8,346 nt of DNA from Bdellovibrio sp. (GTDB lineage: Bacteria; Myxococcota; SpSt-1050): positions 1-8,346 of the forward strand of contig DYEF01000001.1 in NCBI GenBank assembly GCA_020725805.1, written 5' to 3'. Numbering within the stretch: the first letter of the stretch is position 1; the number at the start of each line of letters is the position of its first letter. The position numbers and the translations under genes are program-made. Shown here in pieces: positions 1-8,128 of the stretch. Below the pieces are notes generated by a model. The model had not been told where the DNA came from. It saw only the letters and a list, made by a program, of their open reading frames with translations, and did no database searches.

Positions 1-120
1 CCCTATTACCCCCCATAGGGAAACATATACTTTTCCCTGTAATTCCACTTTAATCCCTAACTTTTCTTTATATCCAAACCTATTAAATGTAACATTTCTA
101 CTTTGCAGATAATGTAACAT
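1..120 (-). pseudogene. Open frame continuing past the lipoprotein stop, possible severed C-terminal part (partial)
   Basis: Seen: the frame shifted by one base from the lipoprotein gene is open from an ATG at 120-118 (no Shine-Dalgarno) to the window edge, about 40 codons. From base 85 it reads TFNRFGYKEK and then LGIKVELQGKVYVSL. The stretch VTFNRFGYKEK resembles the opening of the ASH domain in the adjacent gene, VEFGAMRFGEK: a V-x-F start, then a shared R-F-G, then a charged turn and a strand. Inference: this may be the continuation of the lipoprotein, cut off by the 25-bp duplication at 86-135. It could instead be a chance open frame or a separate overlapping gene. Forty codons is too short to decide, and the true end lies outside the window. 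Confidence 0.35.
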
Positions 121-135
121 TTCTATTTTGGAACA
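86..135. repeat. Imperfect 25-bp tandem duplication over the lipoprotein stop codon
   Basis: Copy 1 is 86-110 and copy 2 is 111-135. They match at 20 of 25 positions, including a perfect 15-bp core, AATGTAACATTTCTA, at 86-100 and 111-125. Each core holds a short palindrome: AAATGT-A-ACATTT at 85-97, and AATGT-A-ACATT at 111-121. Because 25 is not a multiple of three, the second copy in the gene's reading direction is read in a different phase, and its TAG becomes the stop codon at 100-98. Confidence 0.8.
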
Positions 136-1273
136 ACACAGAAAGCTGCGGGTCTTTATAGCCTGCAAGCGCCTTAAAACTCAATATCAGAAGTCCGTCC
201 TCCTTGTTGTCGTCATCGTTATTGACATCAAGGTCATTTGTCTTGAGGGAGACCGAATACTTATCGTCAAGTGCTTCTGTATCTGCAGGATATTCAACAA
301 CCAGCACGATTGAATCGGAAGGCGAGAGATAGACCGGAAGAGTTATTTCATTCCCTTCGGCCGTATCTTTCAGATAGGCACTGAATTTGTTGATATTCGT
401 GCTGTTGTTGCTGTAAATATCATATTTAATCTCAGAAATCTTTACAATAGACTCTTCCGAGACATTCAGAATTGTAACAATCTGTATTTTCTTCTCCTTA
501 AGAGGTATGTTTCCTATGTTAACAGTAACTTCATTTGTCGGACTCTTCTTGTCCGGTTCGGGATATACAACCTCTTCATTTGCGGCATTCAGATATTTAA
601 CCGCAATATCGGGCTTGTCCTTGTAACTGTTTTTCATCTTGATTCTGAGAATCGGCATATCCCCGTCATCAGATGAGACAAGGAGGTCTCCGTTATCCGG
701 CATCTCGTCATTCTGCTGGCAATATACAGTTACTTCAAACTCTCCGCCGGGAGAGAGATTCGAACCAAAGGCAAAATCGGTCCTGAATCCGAATGTAGAT
801 GAATCAGCATTCGCATCCAGCTCTACCTTCAGAATTTTCAGGTCTGCGTTTCCGGTATTTTTTATCCTGACAGTCCTTTCTCTCTTTTCACCAAATCTCA
901 TTGCACCGAATTCGACTGTCATCGGGTCTGCCGAAATCTTTCCTTTCTTGACTATATCCACATCACCAGTATCATTCCCTCCATCAATCCCGGCATCATC
1001 AGCCATATCAACACATTTTCCGTTGATGCAATCCTGTTCCGGTTTGCAGTCAGTCTTATTTCTGCATACAGTCGTTTCTTTCTTTACACAGTAATTGTTC
1101 TTGCATTCCTCATCAGCATTGCACTGTGCATTGTTTTTGCAGGGACGGAGTGCTGCATCCTGTACACCTGTATCACCGCCAAGCGGATTGACAGAATCTC
1201 CGCAGTTATGAACAAATATAATCACCACTGAAATTACAGCAAATACAAAAAGTGACTTAATTCTGAAAGGCAT
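98..1273 (-). CDS. Cysteine-repeat, ASH/choice-of-anchor-D domain exported protein, probable lipoprotein, possibly truncated
   Basis: I recognise domains but not a specific gene. The start is ATG at 1273: AAGGAGG at 1286-1280 gives a 6-nt spacer, whereas the GTG at 1279 abuts the ribosome site and is unlikely. The product is 391 residues. Residues 5-22 are a hydrophobic export segment ending at Cys24 (V-H-N-C), a non-canonical lipobox followed by an acidic, glycine-rich linker. Two tandem modules with spacing C-x5-C-x5-C-x4-C follow (Cys45/51/57/62 and Cys70/76/82/87), then an acidic linker. Residues about 112-215 form an ASH/choice-of-anchor-D-like beta domain starting VEFGAMRFGEK. Residues about 219-370 look like a second beta-sandwich. 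Family knowledge: such proteins are usually surface or periplasmic, and none has a known enzymatic role. The gene has its own promoter. The stop falls inside a 25-bp duplication, so the C-terminus may be artificial (see 1-120). Confidence 0.8.
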   Translation of the reverse strand: MPFRIKSLFVFAVISVVIIFVHNCGDSVNPLGGDTGVQDAALRPCKNNAQCNADEECKNNYCVKKETTVCRNKTDCKPEQDCINGKCVDMADDAGIDGGNDTGDVDIVKKGKISADPMTVEFGAMRFGEKRERTVRIKNTGNADLKILKVELDANADSSTFGFRTDFAFGSNLSPGGEFEVTVYCQQNDEMPDNGDLLVSSDDGDMPILRIKMKNSYKDKPDIAVKYLNAANEEVVYPEPDKKSPTNEVTVNIGNIPLKEKKIQIVTILNVSEESIVKISEIKYDIYSNNSTNINKFSAYLKDTAEGNEITLPVYLSPSDSIVLVVEYPADTEALDDKYSVSLKTNDLDVNNDDDNKEDGLLILSFKALAGYKDPQLSVLFQNRNVTLSAK

Positions 1274-1292
1274 ATCCACCCTCCTTAAATAT

Positions 1293-2553: not shown

Positions 2554-3300
2554 TTACTTGTTTTCTTCTTTCTTCCCTTCCTTTTCGTCGAGACTCATAT
2601 TCCAGGCCACCCAGTCATCTTTCTTCTCTTCTTCAAGGTCAAATGCTATCGGCTCGCTTATATCTCCCTCAGCTGAAACCTTGATCATCTGCATAGCCTT
2701 TGCGATCATCTCCTCCCACTGTTTCTTTGTCACTTCCTTGAACGGAGGCGGAATCTCCTTCCTCTCTTTCTTGGCTTCCGCAAGTTTCGTCTCCTCTTCC
2801 TTGTTCTTCCTGTCGACCACCGGTCTGTTGTTTACCCCTACCTCCCCTTCATAAACCTTGATTATCGAGCTCTCATCCATCAAGGCCGTCACCGAAAAGA
2901 CTGTCCCTCTGACACCTGCAACCGCAGACTTGGTCTTGACCTCAAATTTCTTCTGGTCAGTTGTCTTCTTTACCTTTGCCCAGACCGAACCTATAGAAAC
3001 CATTACAGAATTATCATCCTTCTTTTTTAAGGAAAAGAACTTAAAAACTGTCTTCGGGGCAAGCCTGATTGTACCTTTTTCGCTCTTGACCTCGAGTCTG
3101 GAATCCTCATCGGTCTTGAGATAAATATCACCTGTCAGTTTATCGCCTGCCTTTACTGCCTTCCATGGCCCGTTTTCGGATTTACCCTGAAAACACTTCC
3201 CTTCACAAAGGGAGACCTGAGATGAAGATTCGCCGGCAAAGACATAGAATGCTATTCCTGCAAAGACTATAAATATCAGACCAACGAAAAGTTTTTTCAT
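2554..3300 (-). CDS. Exported FecR-domain protein
   Basis: 248 residues. A basic MKK start and hydrophobic segment (4-22) end in VFAG, a likely signal peptide or anchor. Residues about 50-157 form a FecR domain: a strand-rich region, then IGSVWAKVKK, then the signature AVAGVRGTVFSV at 126-137 and VYEGEVGV at 149-156. A charged Lys/Glu linker follows (165-185), then a helical stretch (187-207), and a tail with the W-x-x-W-N pattern at 230-234. Two cysteines at 32 and 36 flank EGK. Classical FecR proteins are anti-sigma sensors with a cytoplasmic N-terminal domain. This one has no such domain and no FecI or FecA neighbour, so a structural or carbohydrate/peptidoglycan-associated periplasmic role is more likely (inference). 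AAGGAG at 3313-3308 gives a 7-nt spacer. The gap to the upstream gene is 21 nt. Confidence 0.85.
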   Translation of the reverse strand: MKKLFVGLIFIVFAGIAFYVFAGESSSQVSLCEGKCFQGKSENGPWKAVKAGDKLTGDIYLKTDEDSRLEVKSEKGTIRLAPKTVFKFFSLKKKDDNSVMVSIGSVWAKVKKTTDQKKFEVKTKSAVAGVRGTVFSVTALMDESSIIKVYEGEVGVNNRPVVDRKNKEEETKLAEAKKERKEIPPPFKEVTKKQWEEMIAKAMQMIKVSAEGDISEPIAFDLEEEKKDDWVAWNMSLDEKEGKKEENK

Positions 3301-3321: not shown

Positions 3322-4515
3322 TTATTTGCCACCCTTCGTAACCTTGATCTTTACCGTATTCTGCTGCATATCTGTAACTTCCAGAACGGATTTGCCGATC
3401 TTCTTGCCGGAAAGTTCAAGTCCCAGATCCTGTCCCTTACCCTTGTAATCAATATCAAGGGAGGCATCGGGCTTCTTGAATTTTCTGATCTGAACTCCCT
3501 GAACACCCCTTATCTGCTGTGTCAGAAAATTCTTGAATTCAGAGAGAAATCCCGGGTCATCAATACCCGTAATATCTATGGAAACCATCTGTCCGCCAGA
3601 AAGTTCCTGATTCCATTTTTCCATAATTCCGTCAATCAGCTGATTCGAGACCTTCTCGGCAGCCATTTTGAGGGCATTATTGCCTGCGGAAATCTCCGAA
3701 GGGTGAGGATACACATGTTCACCTGTTGCAGTTGCAAGAATCTCCCCGTTGTCAGTATTGAGGGCTCTGACAGACATATTTGCAGAGGCAGTAGGATACT
3801 TGGGAGAATCCGGAGAAGTCCCGATAGGCTGATTACCAAGTGATTTTGCAATAGCCTGACCAAATATCACTATCTGTGCATCAGTCTGATTTGCTATGCT
3901 CTTCGCTGCATCTGAGGAGAGCGAAGCCACCCTGTATGCATCCTTGACCTTGATTTTTCCTGAGACGGCCTGTCTGTCTATAACTGTAAAACCGTTCTTC
4001 TGAAAGATATTTATCATCGTATTTTCGACAATCCCTATATCAGATACTGAGGCCGTGGTACCCCACCAGTAGGACGGGGTCTCCTGACCGACATTCTGCT
4101 CTGAAATCAGGAACATCACGCGGGGTTTCCCTTTCCTCGAAAGTGCTATTCCGATTGCCTTTAGTTTCCCTTCGATCTTCCCCGTTGAGACATCTGCCTG
4201 AATATCAACTATGTATACGTTGTCCTCGACCTTCTCAGAGACAATTTTGTATGACTCAACATAACCCTTTGAATGGGTATATATGTTGTCTTCGAGGAGC
4301 TGAAAGTCCTTTGCCTTCGATTCGGAAGTGACCATCGTACCTACGACCTGTTCAACAGCCCTTCTTAGCGCATCCTCTATTGCCTTGTCTCTCGCCATAG
4401 CCTTGTCGTTATTTACAATAGCGGCCTGTCCCCTTGCTGTAACCGAACCGGCATACAGATAGGCGGGGACCAGAAAAGTTATCAGAACAAGTGAAAAAAT
4501 AATCTTTCTAAACAT
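3322..4515 (-). CDS. FlgT-N-domain (flagellar assembly protein T-like) exported protein
   Basis: 397 residues from ATG 4515, which has GGAGG (AAAAGGAGGC, 4530-4521) five to six nt upstream. An in-frame start at 4599 would overlap the preceding gene by 62 nt, has no ribosome site and would bury the signal peptide, so I reject it. Residues 1-22 are a signal peptide (MFRKIIF to YLYA). Residues about 24-110 match the FlgT N-terminal domain style: GQAAI-x5-AMARDKAIEDALRRAVEQ, then TMVTSES, a helix reaching HSKGYVESY, and a closing strand VYIVDIQADV. Residues about 130-300 form an alpha/beta region with RVMFLISEQ, a helix plus GFTVIDR, and DAQIVIFGQA, reminiscent of the FlgT middle, CsgG or TolB-N folds. 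Residues 308-397 look like a small C-terminal domain. In Vibrio, FlgT builds the outer-membrane flagellar H ring. Here a flagellar role is only an inference, since no flagellar gene is in view. Confidence 0.75.
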   Translation of the reverse strand: MFRKIIFSLVLITFLVPAYLYAGSVTARGQAAIVNNDKAMARDKAIEDALRRAVEQVVGTMVTSESKAKDFQLLEDNIYTHSKGYVESYKIVSEKVEDNVYIVDIQADVSTGKIEGKLKAIGIALSRKGKPRVMFLISEQNVGQETPSYWWGTTASVSDIGIVENTMINIFQKNGFTVIDRQAVSGKIKVKDAYRVASLSSDAAKSIANQTDAQIVIFGQAIAKSLGNQPIGTSPDSPKYPTASANMSVRALNTDNGEILATATGEHVYPHPSEISAGNNALKMAAEKVSNQLIDGIMEKWNQELSGGQMVSIDITGIDDPGFLSEFKNFLTQQIRGVQGVQIRKFKKPDASLDIDYKGKGQDLGLELSGKKIGKSVLEVTDMQQNTVKIKVTKGGK

Positions 4516-4537
4516 TATAAGCCTCCTTTTCTTCTTA

Positions 4538-5443
4538 TTAGTCAACAATGATTGCAAGTCTGCCGCTTCTGAGCAGCTCCCTGTTGATCTTCTTTGCATC
4601 TTCGCTGCGGATAATAATCTCGGATTTGTTCTTTACAGAGACTGCGTTTATTACAACAGGCTTATCCTTGACACGTTCGGAATTCCTTGCTGCATTCTCA
4701 CTCAGATAGTACGATACGAGTTTACCGTCATTTGCAACGGACGGGTCTATTTTCTCGGCTGCAAAGAGCTCATTGTTCTTATCATCGAGAATTTTCGGAA
4801 ACATCACAGGCTGATACGGATGTCCCTTGACATTGATGATATACCCTGTTGAATCTGCCGTCTCAGCCTTCTTTTCTTCCTTTTTGGGCTCATTCTTCGG
4901 AACCTCCGGAGCCGCCTTGGCTTCTTTTACCTCCTGAGGTTTTGCCTTACTCTCCGCAGCCTCCTCTTTCTTTTCCTCCTTCTTCTCCTCCGTCTTCTTC
5001 ACAACCTCCTTGGCAACCGTAGAAGCCATCATTCCCTCAAGGTCTACCTGAACGATAACATCCACTCCTCCGTCCGAATAATACTTGGTATCAATCCTCT
5101 TCATTCCCTTAATCAGTCCCTCAACAGTAGTCTTGACCTCGGGAACGGACTGCATCATATCTCCGACAGTCCAGCTCGAATCAACCCTGACGCCCTTTAC
5201 TACTTCAAGGACCTTTCTGTATGCATCCAGTTCGGCCGCCCTCTCTGTCTGAAGCCTTACCTGAGCTGCTGTAACCCCTCCCTTGAGATTCGGTGCCGCC
5301 GAGCCTGTCACAACTATGACCTTGTTGGTCCAGTTGACCTGCCCGTGTCCTATCTTCTGTATTACCTGGTCCTGCTGCTTGGAATCTGTCTGGGCATAAA
5401 GACAGGTGGCTATCAAAAGCATAATAAAAAGGTATCTCTTCAT
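4538..5443 (-). CDS. LPP20-family exported protein (FlgP-like)
   Basis: 301 residues. The N-terminus is a signal peptide (MKRYLFIMLL to YAQ). Cleavage is possible after Ala17, or at Cys14 if it is a lipoprotein, but I-A-T-C is a poor lipobox. Residues about 32-138 carry the LPP20 pattern: VVTGSAAPN, then RLQTERAAELDAYRKVLE, then VVKGVRVDSSWTVGD, then VEGLIKGMK and a strand ending in DVIVQVDLEG. A Lys/Glu/Ala/Pro low-complexity linker spans 144-197. The C-terminal domain (198-301) begins TGYIINVKG and includes FPKILDDKNNELFAAE and a final LAIIVD; it is often found behind LPP20 domains. Family knowledge: LPP20 proteins include Helicobacter LPP20 and FlgP, the flagellar outer-membrane disc protein. 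AAGGAGG at 5456-5450 gives a 6-nt spacer. It is first in a four-gene operon, with 22 nt to the next start. Confidence 0.8.
   Translation of the reverse strand: MKRYLFIMLLIATCLYAQTDSKQQDQVIQKIGHGQVNWTNKVIVVTGSAAPNLKGGVTAAQVRLQTERAAELDAYRKVLEVVKGVRVDSSWTVGDMMQSVPEVKTTVEGLIKGMKRIDTKYYSDGGVDVIVQVDLEGMMASTVAKEVVKKTEEKKEEKKEEAAESKAKPQEVKEAKAAPEVPKNEPKKEEKKAETADSTGYIINVKGHPYQPVMFPKILDDKNNELFAAEKIDPSVANDGKLVSYYLSENAARNSERVKDKPVVINAVSVKNKSEIIIRSEDAKKINRELLRSGRLAIIVD
4853..4999 (-). repeat. Lys/Glu-rich low-complexity linker in the LPP20-family gene
   Basis: Encodes residues 149-197. EEKKEEKKEE is followed by mixed K/E/A/P sequence, and the DNA is a run of GAA/GAG/AAG codons. It separates the LPP20 domain from the C-terminal domain and probably acts as a flexible or helical spacer across the periplasm (inference). 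Confidence 0.7.
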
Positions 5444-5572: not shown

Positions 5573-8128
5573 CTACAGACATTTCGAAAAACCGCAGGTC
5601 GGCTCTGTACAAACGAAGCACCCTTCCACGGTCATCATATTGCTTCCGCATTCCGGACAGGTCACCGAAGTCTTTTCGCCTGTGCTGCTTATATTCCCTT
5701 TGGTCTGAGTCTTCTTAATCTCGACCTTCTCTGCAGGAGGCGGGAGTGTCTTCTCTGTCTTCATATCACTTCTTCTCTCGAGATATGTCTTCATTGCCCT
5801 CGAAATCGCATCTGCACAGGAGAGGATGAGTTCACCGTTAGACCATTGCGGATTCGGGCACCTGACTCCCTGCAACTGTTTGATTATCGACTCCATATCG
5901 ATTCCAGCCCTGAGAGAAAGGGAGATAAGCCTCGAGATTGCCTCGGCCTGTGAAGACGCACAACCTCCGGCCTTCCCTATTGCTGTAAAGAGTTCGACAG
6001 GACCATTTTCATCTTCATTGACTGTAACATAGATATTTCCACAGCCGGTAATCAGTTTCTGCGTAATCCCCCAGACACAGTCGGGTCTCTCCCTCGGGAC
6101 AATTCTTAAAGGCTGCACCGGTTCTGTCTGAGCCACCTCTTTTGTCTCTGTTGTCTTCTTGGTCGACAGGACCTGATCCTCTCTCGAACCATCCCTGTAA
6201 ACCGTTACACCCTTGCAACCGAGCTTATATGCAAGCAGATAGATATCCTTGACATCTTCCTGAGTGGCATCGTGCGGGAGATTCACCGTCTTGCTGACAG
6301 CATTGTCAACATACTTCTGGAAGGCCGCCTGCATCCTGACATGCCATTCGGGAGAGATATCGTGAGCAGTCCTGAAAATCCTTCTGACCCTCTGAGGAAT
6401 CCCTTCAATATCCTGAGCACTCCCCTTCTCGGCTATTTTTGCAATTATCTCCTCACTGTAAAACCCCTCCTCTCTTGCAATCTTCATAAAGAGCGGGTTC
6501 GTCTCATAAAGTTTGGTATTGTCCATAACATTCCTTACGTACGCAATCGCAAAGAGCGGCTCGATACCCGAGGATGTTCCGGCGATAATGCTTATAGTTC
6601 CGGTCGGGGCGATAGTAGTAGTGGTGGCATTTCTAAGTGGTTTGAATCCCGGTTTGTCATAGATACTCCCCTTAAAGTTGGGGAAGGCCCCTCTCTCCTC
6701 CGCAAGCTGTGCTGATTCAATCTTGCTCTCCCGGTTGATGAAATTCATCACCTGTTCTGCAAGATTCAGTGCATCAAACGAGTCATACTGGACACCCAGT
6801 TTTATCAGCATATCGGCAAAACCCATTACCCCGAGACCTATCTTTCTGTTCCCCTTTGTCATACGCTCAATCTCCGGAATCGGATACTTGTTGACCTCAA
6901 TCACATTATCGAGGAAACGGGTTGCTGTACGGACGACATAAGAGAGTCTGTCGAAATCTATCTTCCCGTCCCTTACCATCAGGGAGAGATTTATCGAACC
7001 AAGGTTGCAGGATTCATACGGGAGAAGCGGTTGCTCACCGCAGGGATTGGTACTCTCGATCATTCCGATATGCGGGGTCGGATTGGCCGCATTTATCCTG
7101 TCGAGAAAGACTATACCCGGCTCACCGTTTTTCCATGCATAAAGGACAATCTTGTCAAAGACCATCCGTGCATTAAGTCTTCCGGTGACCTGCCGTGTAT
7201 TGGGATTTATAAGTTCGTAAGACTCGTTGTTAATGACCGCCTTCATAAAATCTTCCGTAAGGCCGACCGAAATATTGAAATTATTGAACATCTTGTCCTG
7301 TGCCTTGGATTCGATAAAACGGAGAATATCGGGATGATTGACATTCAGAATACCCATATTGGCACCGCGTCTCGTTCCGCCCTGCTTTATGGTCTCTGTG
7401 GCCACATCAAAGACCTTCATAAACGAGAGGGGACCGGATGAAACACCTTTTGTTGAGGCAACCACATCGTTCTGGGGTCTGATTCTCGAAAAGGAGAATC
7501 CTGTGCCGCCGCCGCTCTTATGAATAAGGGCTGTATTCTTTATTGCCTCGAATATGGATTCCATCGAATCATCCACCGGCAATACAAAACAGGCTGAAAG
7601 CTGACCGAGTTCCCTGCCGGCATTCATAAGTGTGGGTGAGTTCGGAACGAATTCGAGCGAGGACATTATTTCATAGAACTTTATAGTATATTCCTCTGCC
7701 AGCTGCTCCCCGTCAGGTCTTCCGAATTTCTTCTCTGCCTGCGCGATATAGGAGGCCACTCTGAAAAAGAGTTCCTCGGGTGTCTCCGTTACATTTCCCT
7801 CATTGTCCTTCTTAAGATATCTCTTCTCAAGAACCTTCATCGCATTTTCCGAGATGTTAATAGGTGTCAGAAAGCCGTATTCAATAAGTTTTTTGTTCAG
7901 GATCTTCTTGGCGAGATAGACGAATCTGTGGTCCTTTTCGGAGAGTTTTTCGTATTCCGACCTGACCTCGTTAATAATATTACGGGCTGTATCGTTCTCT
8001 ATTCCGAGAAGTCCGAGGCGGTTTATTATCGGACCAAAATCGATACCTTCCTTTGTATTATGCTTCAAATCCCCGAAGGTTTGTTCGATGAGCTGAATGT
8101 AACTCGTTTGAAAAGACTTCTTTTCCAT
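5573..8128 (-). CDS. nrdJ: Class II (adenosylcobalamin-dependent) ribonucleoside-diphosphate reductase NrdJ
   Basis: 851 residues, essentially complete. It reduces ribonucleotides to deoxyribonucleotides using a thiyl radical generated from coenzyme B12, so it needs no metal-radical subunit and works with or without oxygen. Seen: NSPTLMNAGRELGQLSACF with redox Cys180; SGGGTGFSFSRIRP at 205-218; the catalytic loop NPCGE at 361-365 (Asn361, Cys363, Glu365); second redox Cys374 in YESCNLGSINL; and phosphate-binding APTGT at 507-511. A TSCPD domain spans about 680-760 (PDCVWGITQKL, GKAGGCASSQAEA). A charged linker follows, then a C-terminal cysteine cluster (Cys824, 827, 837, 840, 845, 850), which shuttles electrons and/or binds zinc in this family. 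Residues 1-90 precede the usual NISENAMKVLEKRYL start and may be a worn ATP-cone. AAGGAGG (8141-8135) gives a 6-nt spacer. No class I or III reductase gene is nearby. Confidence 0.96.
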   Translation of the reverse strand: MEKKSFQTSYIQLIEQTFGDLKHNTKEGIDFGPIINRLGLLGIENDTARNIINEVRSEYEKLSEKDHRFVYLAKKILNKKLIEYGFLTPINISENAMKVLEKRYLKKDNEGNVTETPEELFFRVASYIAQAEKKFGRPDGEQLAEEYTIKFYEIMSSLEFVPNSPTLMNAGRELGQLSACFVLPVDDSMESIFEAIKNTALIHKSGGGTGFSFSRIRPQNDVVASTKGVSSGPLSFMKVFDVATETIKQGGTRRGANMGILNVNHPDILRFIESKAQDKMFNNFNISVGLTEDFMKAVINNESYELINPNTRQVTGRLNARMVFDKIVLYAWKNGEPGIVFLDRINAANPTPHIGMIESTNPCGEQPLLPYESCNLGSINLSLMVRDGKIDFDRLSYVVRTATRFLDNVIEVNKYPIPEIERMTKGNRKIGLGVMGFADMLIKLGVQYDSFDALNLAEQVMNFINRESKIESAQLAEERGAFPNFKGSIYDKPGFKPLRNATTTTIAPTGTISIIAGTSSGIEPLFAIAYVRNVMDNTKLYETNPLFMKIAREEGFYSEEIIAKIAEKGSAQDIEGIPQRVRRIFRTAHDISPEWHVRMQAAFQKYVDNAVSKTVNLPHDATQEDVKDIYLLAYKLGCKGVTVYRDGSREDQVLSTKKTTETKEVAQTEPVQPLRIVPRERPDCVWGITQKLITGCGNIYVTVNEDENGPVELFTAIGKAGGCASSQAEAISRLISLSLRAGIDMESIIKQLQGVRCPNPQWSNGELILSCADAISRAMKTYLERRSDMKTEKTLPPPAEKVEIKKTQTKGNISSTGEKTSVTCPECGSNMMTVEGCFVCTEPTCGFSKCL

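Follow-up and report, generated by a model that had tools for sequence, protein, structure and literature searches.

Contig DYEF01000001.1 of the Bdellovibrio sp. assembly GCA_020725805.1 opens onto the reverse-strand reading frame of a multi-ASH lipoprotein gene, which comes to a TAG stop codon within a pair of 25-bp repeats close to the contig edge, raising the question of whether the gene ends there or was broken and, if so, by what. A sequence-only reading of the window, i.e., the whole 8,346-nt stretch analyzed here (contig positions 1 to 8,346), had proposed that a longer multi-ASH gene was frameshifted by a tandem duplication, acting as a slipped-strand switch or arising as an assembly error. 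The repeat pair and the stop codon at 100–98 are both present as described: positions 86–110 and 111–135 are identical at 20 of 25 bases, with a perfect core of 15 bases. The pair is also conserved at many contig ends of the same genome and hence does not reflect local chance. The features considered below are as follows:

1–138, minus strand: promoter-proximal end of an IS1202-type insertion sequence (IS), with its outward terminus ...TTTTGGAACAACA at 138 (from identical contig ends and from the matching opposite end and target duplication on contig C2; orientation from sister-genome remnants)
86–110, minus strand: inner subterminal repeat AATGTAACATTTCTACTTTGCAGAT, a probable transposase-binding site (20/25 identity to the neighboring copy; paired at both IS ends and in sister genome G001)
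111–135, minus strand: outer, terminal repeat AATGTAACATTTCTATTTTGGAACA, a probable transposase-binding site on the same basis
98–100, minus strand: TAG stop of the truncated lipoprotein open reading frame (ORF), supplied by the IS (from translation)
139–154, no strand: 16-bp target site duplication CAGAAAGCTGCGGGTC, with the second, exact copy on C2 (locus L047)
155–160, plus strand: TTTATA, a weak -35-like hexamer where most other insertions have TTGACA-like boxes, with no good -10 element after it
139–1279, minus strand: 5' part of the multi-ASH lipoprotein gene, whose frame continues over at least 466 codons of C2

Interruption of the lipoprotein gene

A search of the window's own genome matched positions 1–138, or most of them, at 99% to 100% identity to the ends of about 12 other contigs (C24, C100, C79, C77, C58, C56, C43, C21, C74, C33, C94, and C32). 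Past base 138, the contigs sharing this sequence all diverge from each other. A shared stretch followed by unlike flanks marks 1–138 as one end of a multicopy mobile element, the collapsed interior of which is missing from the assembly. Weaker matches to 85–122 led to fourteen contig ends that bear ...AAATGTAACATTTTGACGTTGCAGTTACA followed by differing flanks and represent the opposite end of the element, and the sequence of window positions 139–154 recurs on C2 directly beside this opposite end. There, the lipoprotein frame is in phase across the junction (DPQLSV/LDLNDKDIL...) and stays open for 466 codons to the end of the stretch read; the continuation carries two HYDIN/VesB-type Ig stretches, one ASH domain, and Cys-rich repeats. 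Because the C2 frame runs on in phase from the target duplication, we read the gene as a longer multi-ASH lipoprotein gene broken by an IS and, judging from the sequences of the two junctions, it is cut by an insertion between window positions 138 and 139. A search of relatives for orthologous DNA representing the unoccupied lipoprotein site gave no match.

The sequence-only reading was thus right that a longer multi-ASH gene is interrupted near the window start, the in-phase C2 frame carrying further ASH-type domains, but mistaken as to the cause, which is the IS with its 16-bp target duplication. The alternative frame that it had pointed to is indeed open to base 1, but consists of IS rather than gene sequence: the "rejoined" NVTFNRFGYKEK/LGIKVELQGK stretch is present at the ends of unrelated contigs too, and its likeness to the start of an ASH domain is accidental. 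The last 12 residues of the window ORF, LFQNRNVTLSAK, are similarly IS-derived and found at unrelated contig ends. A tandem duplication, whether by slippage, as a phase switch, or through misassembly, would fit the repeat and the shifted open frame, both of which exist; however, the same 138 bp stand at the ends of many unrelated contigs, and the true continuation of the gene begins at the target duplication on C2, a junction that refutes this explanation and leaves it practically no weight. A slipped-strand phase-variable repeat would rejoin the frame of its gene, whereas the repeat here lies in a multicopy IS end and the gene resumes on C2.

We consider it highly probable that an IS1202-type element split the lipoprotein gene and that the group to which it belongs cuts at the -35 edge of σ70-type promoters. 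On this account, a long-duplication IS1202-family element would have inserted into the multi-ASH gene, and the tandem repeat would be its subterminal repeat pair.

The inserted element and its family

Nine of the 16 promoter-side ends in the genome, that is, ends of the window type, pair with an opposite end through an exact 16- or 17-bp duplication, the window pairing with C2. The element has TGT...ACA ends on both sides (termini AACAACA and GTTACA), and paired repeats with a ATGTAACAT core, putatively bound by the transposase, lie near both; the pair at the opposite end is similarly spaced, as are the pairs in related remnants of sister genome G001. TGT...ACA ends and subterminal repeats characterize the long-duplication group of the IS1202 family (PMC10132070; also PMC10045372), and the nine exact pairs fall within the duplications of at least 15 bp that define this group.

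The interior of the element is present in no contig of the assembly, the contigs stopping ~139 bp into both ends. A profile search of the window's genome for the ISNCY family transposase (NF033594) gave no matches, and a search for IstB/IS21 gave two weak, partial matches only; an exact-end search of viral contigs and an Rfam search of the window were without a match. Contig C36 was considered as a carrier of the interior and rejected, since it holds a short variant end beside ordinary genes. This variant, with CTTGAGAGAATAA in place of CTTTGCAGATAA, also occurs at the ends of C113 and C72; on C36 (L050, 17–87), it is a solo end of ~70 bp and, via the overlap with C72, still adjoins a promoter-like site ahead of a tRNA-Leu gene. 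It is probably an older, mostly deleted copy.

The sister genome G001 contains 16 matches to the NF033594 transposase, mostly decayed. In four of the loci (L055, L057, L058, and L061), the transposase N-terminus survives along with an IS end that reads TGTGATTTCTATTTTAAAATGTCACAGGATATTACTAATTTGAAATGTCACAT and has the same kind of repeat pair, spaced by ~25 bp. Because these remnants keep the N-terminus beside the same kind of end, window 1–138 is most likely, on sequence grounds, the transposase-5' end of the IS. A -35/-10 pair begins 15–16 bp outside the IS end at L055, L058, and L061; at L057, the distance is 17 bp, to a TTGACT that no good -10 follows. The ERRFRFFQ motif in remnants from the same genus has its Q at +7 from E, which is described as the hallmark of the IS1202 DDE transposase (PMC10132070). 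Intact relatives encode a D,D,E transposase with Q at the same +7 position and score above the NF033594 cut-off. For the relatives, which stand in for the unrecovered transposase of the element itself, the matching models are NF033594/IS481 and TnsB/IstA, and none is of the Mutator type; a profile of these relatives matches solved TnsB and IstA structures, and a structure model of one member (mean pLDDT 84) had IstA, TnsB, and MuA among its best folds.

Judged by the sister genome, the element, the own transposase of which was not recovered, appears to belong to the long-duplication (ISTde1-like) part of the IS1202 family and, judged from relatives, would be roughly 1.3–1.8 kb long. A nonautonomous, MITE-like derivative moved by an IS1202-type transposase would fit the lack of a transposase in the assembly, but we regard it as unlikely: the contigs stop at a similar depth into both ends, as for a longer collapsed repeat, and a short MITE is usually read through in assembly. 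Moreover, one end reads YKGKRLCKTKSGIVKEYSEAVI and then a stop, by eye like a transposase C-terminus, although with no significant match.

Insertion sites in the window's genome

On the side of the window-type end, the sequence beyond the duplication has a -35-like hexamer at offset 0, mostly followed by a -10 element ~17 bp later. The hexamers of the nine paired sites are TTTATA (window), TTTACA, TTGCAA, TTTACA, TTGACA, TTGACA, TTGCTT, TTGCAT, and TTGACT. Promoters were predicted by score, using matrices with approximate E. coli values. Across the 16 sites, the σ70 promoter score averages 8.6, compared with -2.1 (sd 1.0, maximum 0.5) for control offsets within those flanks; at the seven ends lacking a partner, three duplication lengths were tried and the best one kept, for sites and controls alike. 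All but two of the sites score at least 5 (14/16), the exceptions being the window (4.5) and C94 (3.5). Downstream lie mostly co-directional ORFs, several with ribosome binding sites, as well as tRNA-Val and tRNA-Leu genes. The site in the window, weak and intragenic, departs from this pattern and has no convincing promoter, and the copy found there would be an off-target insertion at the weak -35-like TTTATA within a gene, yielding the truncated protein.

Insertion sites across other genomes

Transposase genes were gathered by an NF033594 search and a scan of genome contigs, and further copies were fetched. Defining IS boundaries from inverted and direct repeats, blind to promoters, yielded 100 distinct sites, some of which share genome and element and are thus not fully independent, although their flanks differ; many source genomes are metagenome bins, and sampling by one family model may miss divergent members. 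The duplications comprise four of 6–7 bp, nearly all others of 12–19 bp, and one initially called as 28 bp.

For 99 sites, with both flanks scored and the better of the two sides used at offset 0, the mean score at that position is 9.8, compared with -2.7 (sd 0.38, maximum -1.6) at offsets of 60–400. Scores of at least 5 are reached by 85 of 99 sites versus 2.5% of controls, scores of at least 8 by 73 of 99 versus 0.4%, and TTG adjoins the duplication in 83 of 99 versus 3.3%. A shift by a single base in either direction cuts the mean from 9.8 to ~2.4. The sequence logo is TTGACA-N17-TATAAT, with G enriched at the extended -10 and the duplication itself nearly free of signal, and tRNA promoters are among the targets. 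Among sites scoring at least 5 (L073–L321), T never stands directly 5' of the -35 hexamer, as the last base of the duplication (0/84), as if the strand-transfer step avoided T. By these alignments, the group cuts exactly at the upstream edge of the predicted σ70-type -35 hexamer.

Random insertion, with copies persisting only in harmless upstream regions, is a very improbable main cause of this pattern. Promoter-side flanks do tend to lead into co-directional genes, as such survivorship predicts, but selection cannot determine the cut with single-base accuracy, and one end consistently faces the promoter in most element types. The base-level precision refutes survivorship as the main cause; it may contribute to the pattern.

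The element of genome G854 required its automatic boundaries (13, 19, and 28 bp) to be replaced by ones drawn from its own conserved ends, whereupon its four copies have duplications of 26–28 bp, all at the promoter anchor (TTTACA-17-TATACT, TTTACT-17-TATAAT, TTGACA-17-TATTCT, and TTGACA-17-TATAAT). With this redefinition, 88 of 100 insertions, from many phyla, fit the promoter rule (84/96 plus 4/4) and 12 do not. If the right end of the G854 element (L215 and L271–L273) is TTGACA, its left end reads TATGATTC, not TGT. At the short extreme, TTGACA plus a -10 occupies this anchor position in L119 and L108 (duplications of 6 and 7 bp), and neither a promoter nor an obvious alternative target is seen in L117 and L118, which form a small clade and duplicate 7 bp.

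Plasmid copies offered few usable duplications. Those that follow the rule are a Paenibacillus copy (18 bp, TTGACC-17-TATAAT) and a Spiroplasma copy (18 bp with one mismatch, TTGTAA-15-TATAAT); Microvirga, Enterococcus, and Klebsiella copies show no clear duplication. Two Sphingobium plasmid copies (L331 and L334) without a long duplication lie a few bases from the dif-like TTATGTTAA, consistent with the published group that targets dif.

Recognition of the promoter and geometry of the cuts

With only the -35 used to pick the side, a -10 score of 4 or more is found at 66% of sites, compared with 3.9% of 1,781 other -35-like hexamers in the same flanks, and a spacer of 17 dominates. Of the 13 sites at which the -35 is weak, most keep a correctly spaced -10 that is unusual for those flanks. 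ORF starts in the same direction follow 68 of 81 promoter sides and 48 of 81 other sides (Fisher p = 0.0008). Because the -10 is enriched independently of the -35 and co-directional ORF starts follow, the recognized object is most likely, as far as the sites tell, the promoter as a unit; the simplest form of this would be a promoter occupied by RNA polymerase.

An alternative is that the transposase reads the -35 hexamer directly, or reads TTGACA as it would its own IS terminus, striking promoters merely for that motif. In its favor, the logo is strongest at the -35, ...TTGACA forms the end of many relatives, and one GC-rich site (L147) has TTGACA without a -10; yet the -10 enrichment and its persistence at weak -35 sites speak against this reading, as does the element in the window's genome, which targets TTGACA-like boxes with its own AACAACA and GTTACA ends. 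We judge direct reading possible but rather unlikely, and the independent -10 signal counts against recognition of TTGACA only.

On the -35 side, the cut position is constant, at the upstream edge of the hexamer, and the second cut falls 15–19 bp upstream in most elements, 6–7 bp in two, and 26–28 bp in one, i.e., at positions about one helical turn apart. A near-helical-turn spacing of duplication lengths had been noted earlier, without an anchor (PMC10045372); one anchored cut and one sliding cut are a likely reason for it. One copy of the duplication always lies between the IS end and the -35 box, so that the -35, the -10, and the adjoining upstream stretch are left intact, with the IS parked immediately upstream of the core promoter. 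Orientation is nearly always constant for a given element, all copies agreeing in G672, G857, G920, G1195, G1216, and G1036, and mixed in G1220; on the transposase tree, like orientations group together (13 and 9 changes versus 24 and 18.5 with shuffled labels).

In the mechanism that we favor, the transposase would capture promoters to which the RNA polymerase holoenzyme is bound, by docking onto σ region 4 at the -35 box; a comparable docking, beside XerC at dif, has been proposed for the ISAjo2 group. We lean toward such docking on σ region 4 as the means of capture. With slightly less assurance, we extend it to long-duplication IS1202-family elements as general promoter hunters of bacteria, which would combine polymerase recognition, a cut at the -35 edge, a second cut set by helical turns, and a family-wide docking on either XerC or σ.

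Relation to known systems

The 2023 paper that defined the IS1202 family found no target for its long-duplication members (PMC10132070). The element described here has in common with the ISTde1 and IS1202 groups (15–29 bp duplications) the TGT...ACA ends, the subterminal repeats, and duplications of 16–17 bp, and its relatives likewise have a TnsB-like DDE transposase with Q at +7; it differs in that a target is now identified, the upstream edge of σ70 -35 boxes. The ISAjo2 group, which has 5-bp duplications and lies beside dif/pdif, targets dif sites at a fixed distance (PMC10132070). It shares with the present elements the transposase family and the arrangement of an IS end, one duplication copy, and a fixed host protein-binding site in fixed orientation, but has a shorter duplication and the XerC side of dif, rather than a promoter, as its target.

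Promoter targeting itself is known behavior. Mutator-type TnGBS, ISLre2, and some ISKra4 elements insert 15–17 bp upstream of σA -35 boxes with 8–9 bp repeats (PMC3942029). The IS end lies 15–17 bp upstream of the -35 here as well, usually with one fixed end toward the promoter; however, the transposase, judged on relatives, is unrelated to the Mutator type, and the duplications are 16–17 bp here and 6–7, 15–19, or 26–28 bp in relatives. Mutator-type duplications, at 8–9 bp, are too short for the -35-side cut to fall at the edge of the hexamer. TnsB of Tn7-like elements and IstA of IS21 are remote relatives, in sequence and fold, of the transposase of the relatives. Tn7-like and IS21 systems use accessory proteins (TnsC/TnsD and IstB, respectively). 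For IS1202 elements, no accessory proteins have been reported (PMC10132070). Within the open-access full text searched, we found no report of promoter targeting by IS1202, for which the behavior, with an unrelated transposase and another cut geometry, appears to be new.

The rule supplies the target of long-duplication IS1202 members at single-base resolution in many phyla, accounts for these elements seldom breaking genes, and brings to two the unrelated transposase families in which promoter targeting is seen. The insertions provide natural landing marks for σ70 promoters in uncultured bacteria, and capture of RNA polymerase by a transposase becomes directly testable. If the proposed mechanism is true, duplication length would be a readout of one anchored complex, and the IS1202 family would have evolved by docking next to different DNA-bound host proteins, XerC or σ.

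Other genes of the window

The remaining genes of the window look ordinary by eye: an AI-2E-transporter-like permease (1480–2550), a FecR-like protein (2554–3300), two LPP20/FlgT-like proteins (3322–5443), and a ribonucleotide reductase-like gene (5573–8128).
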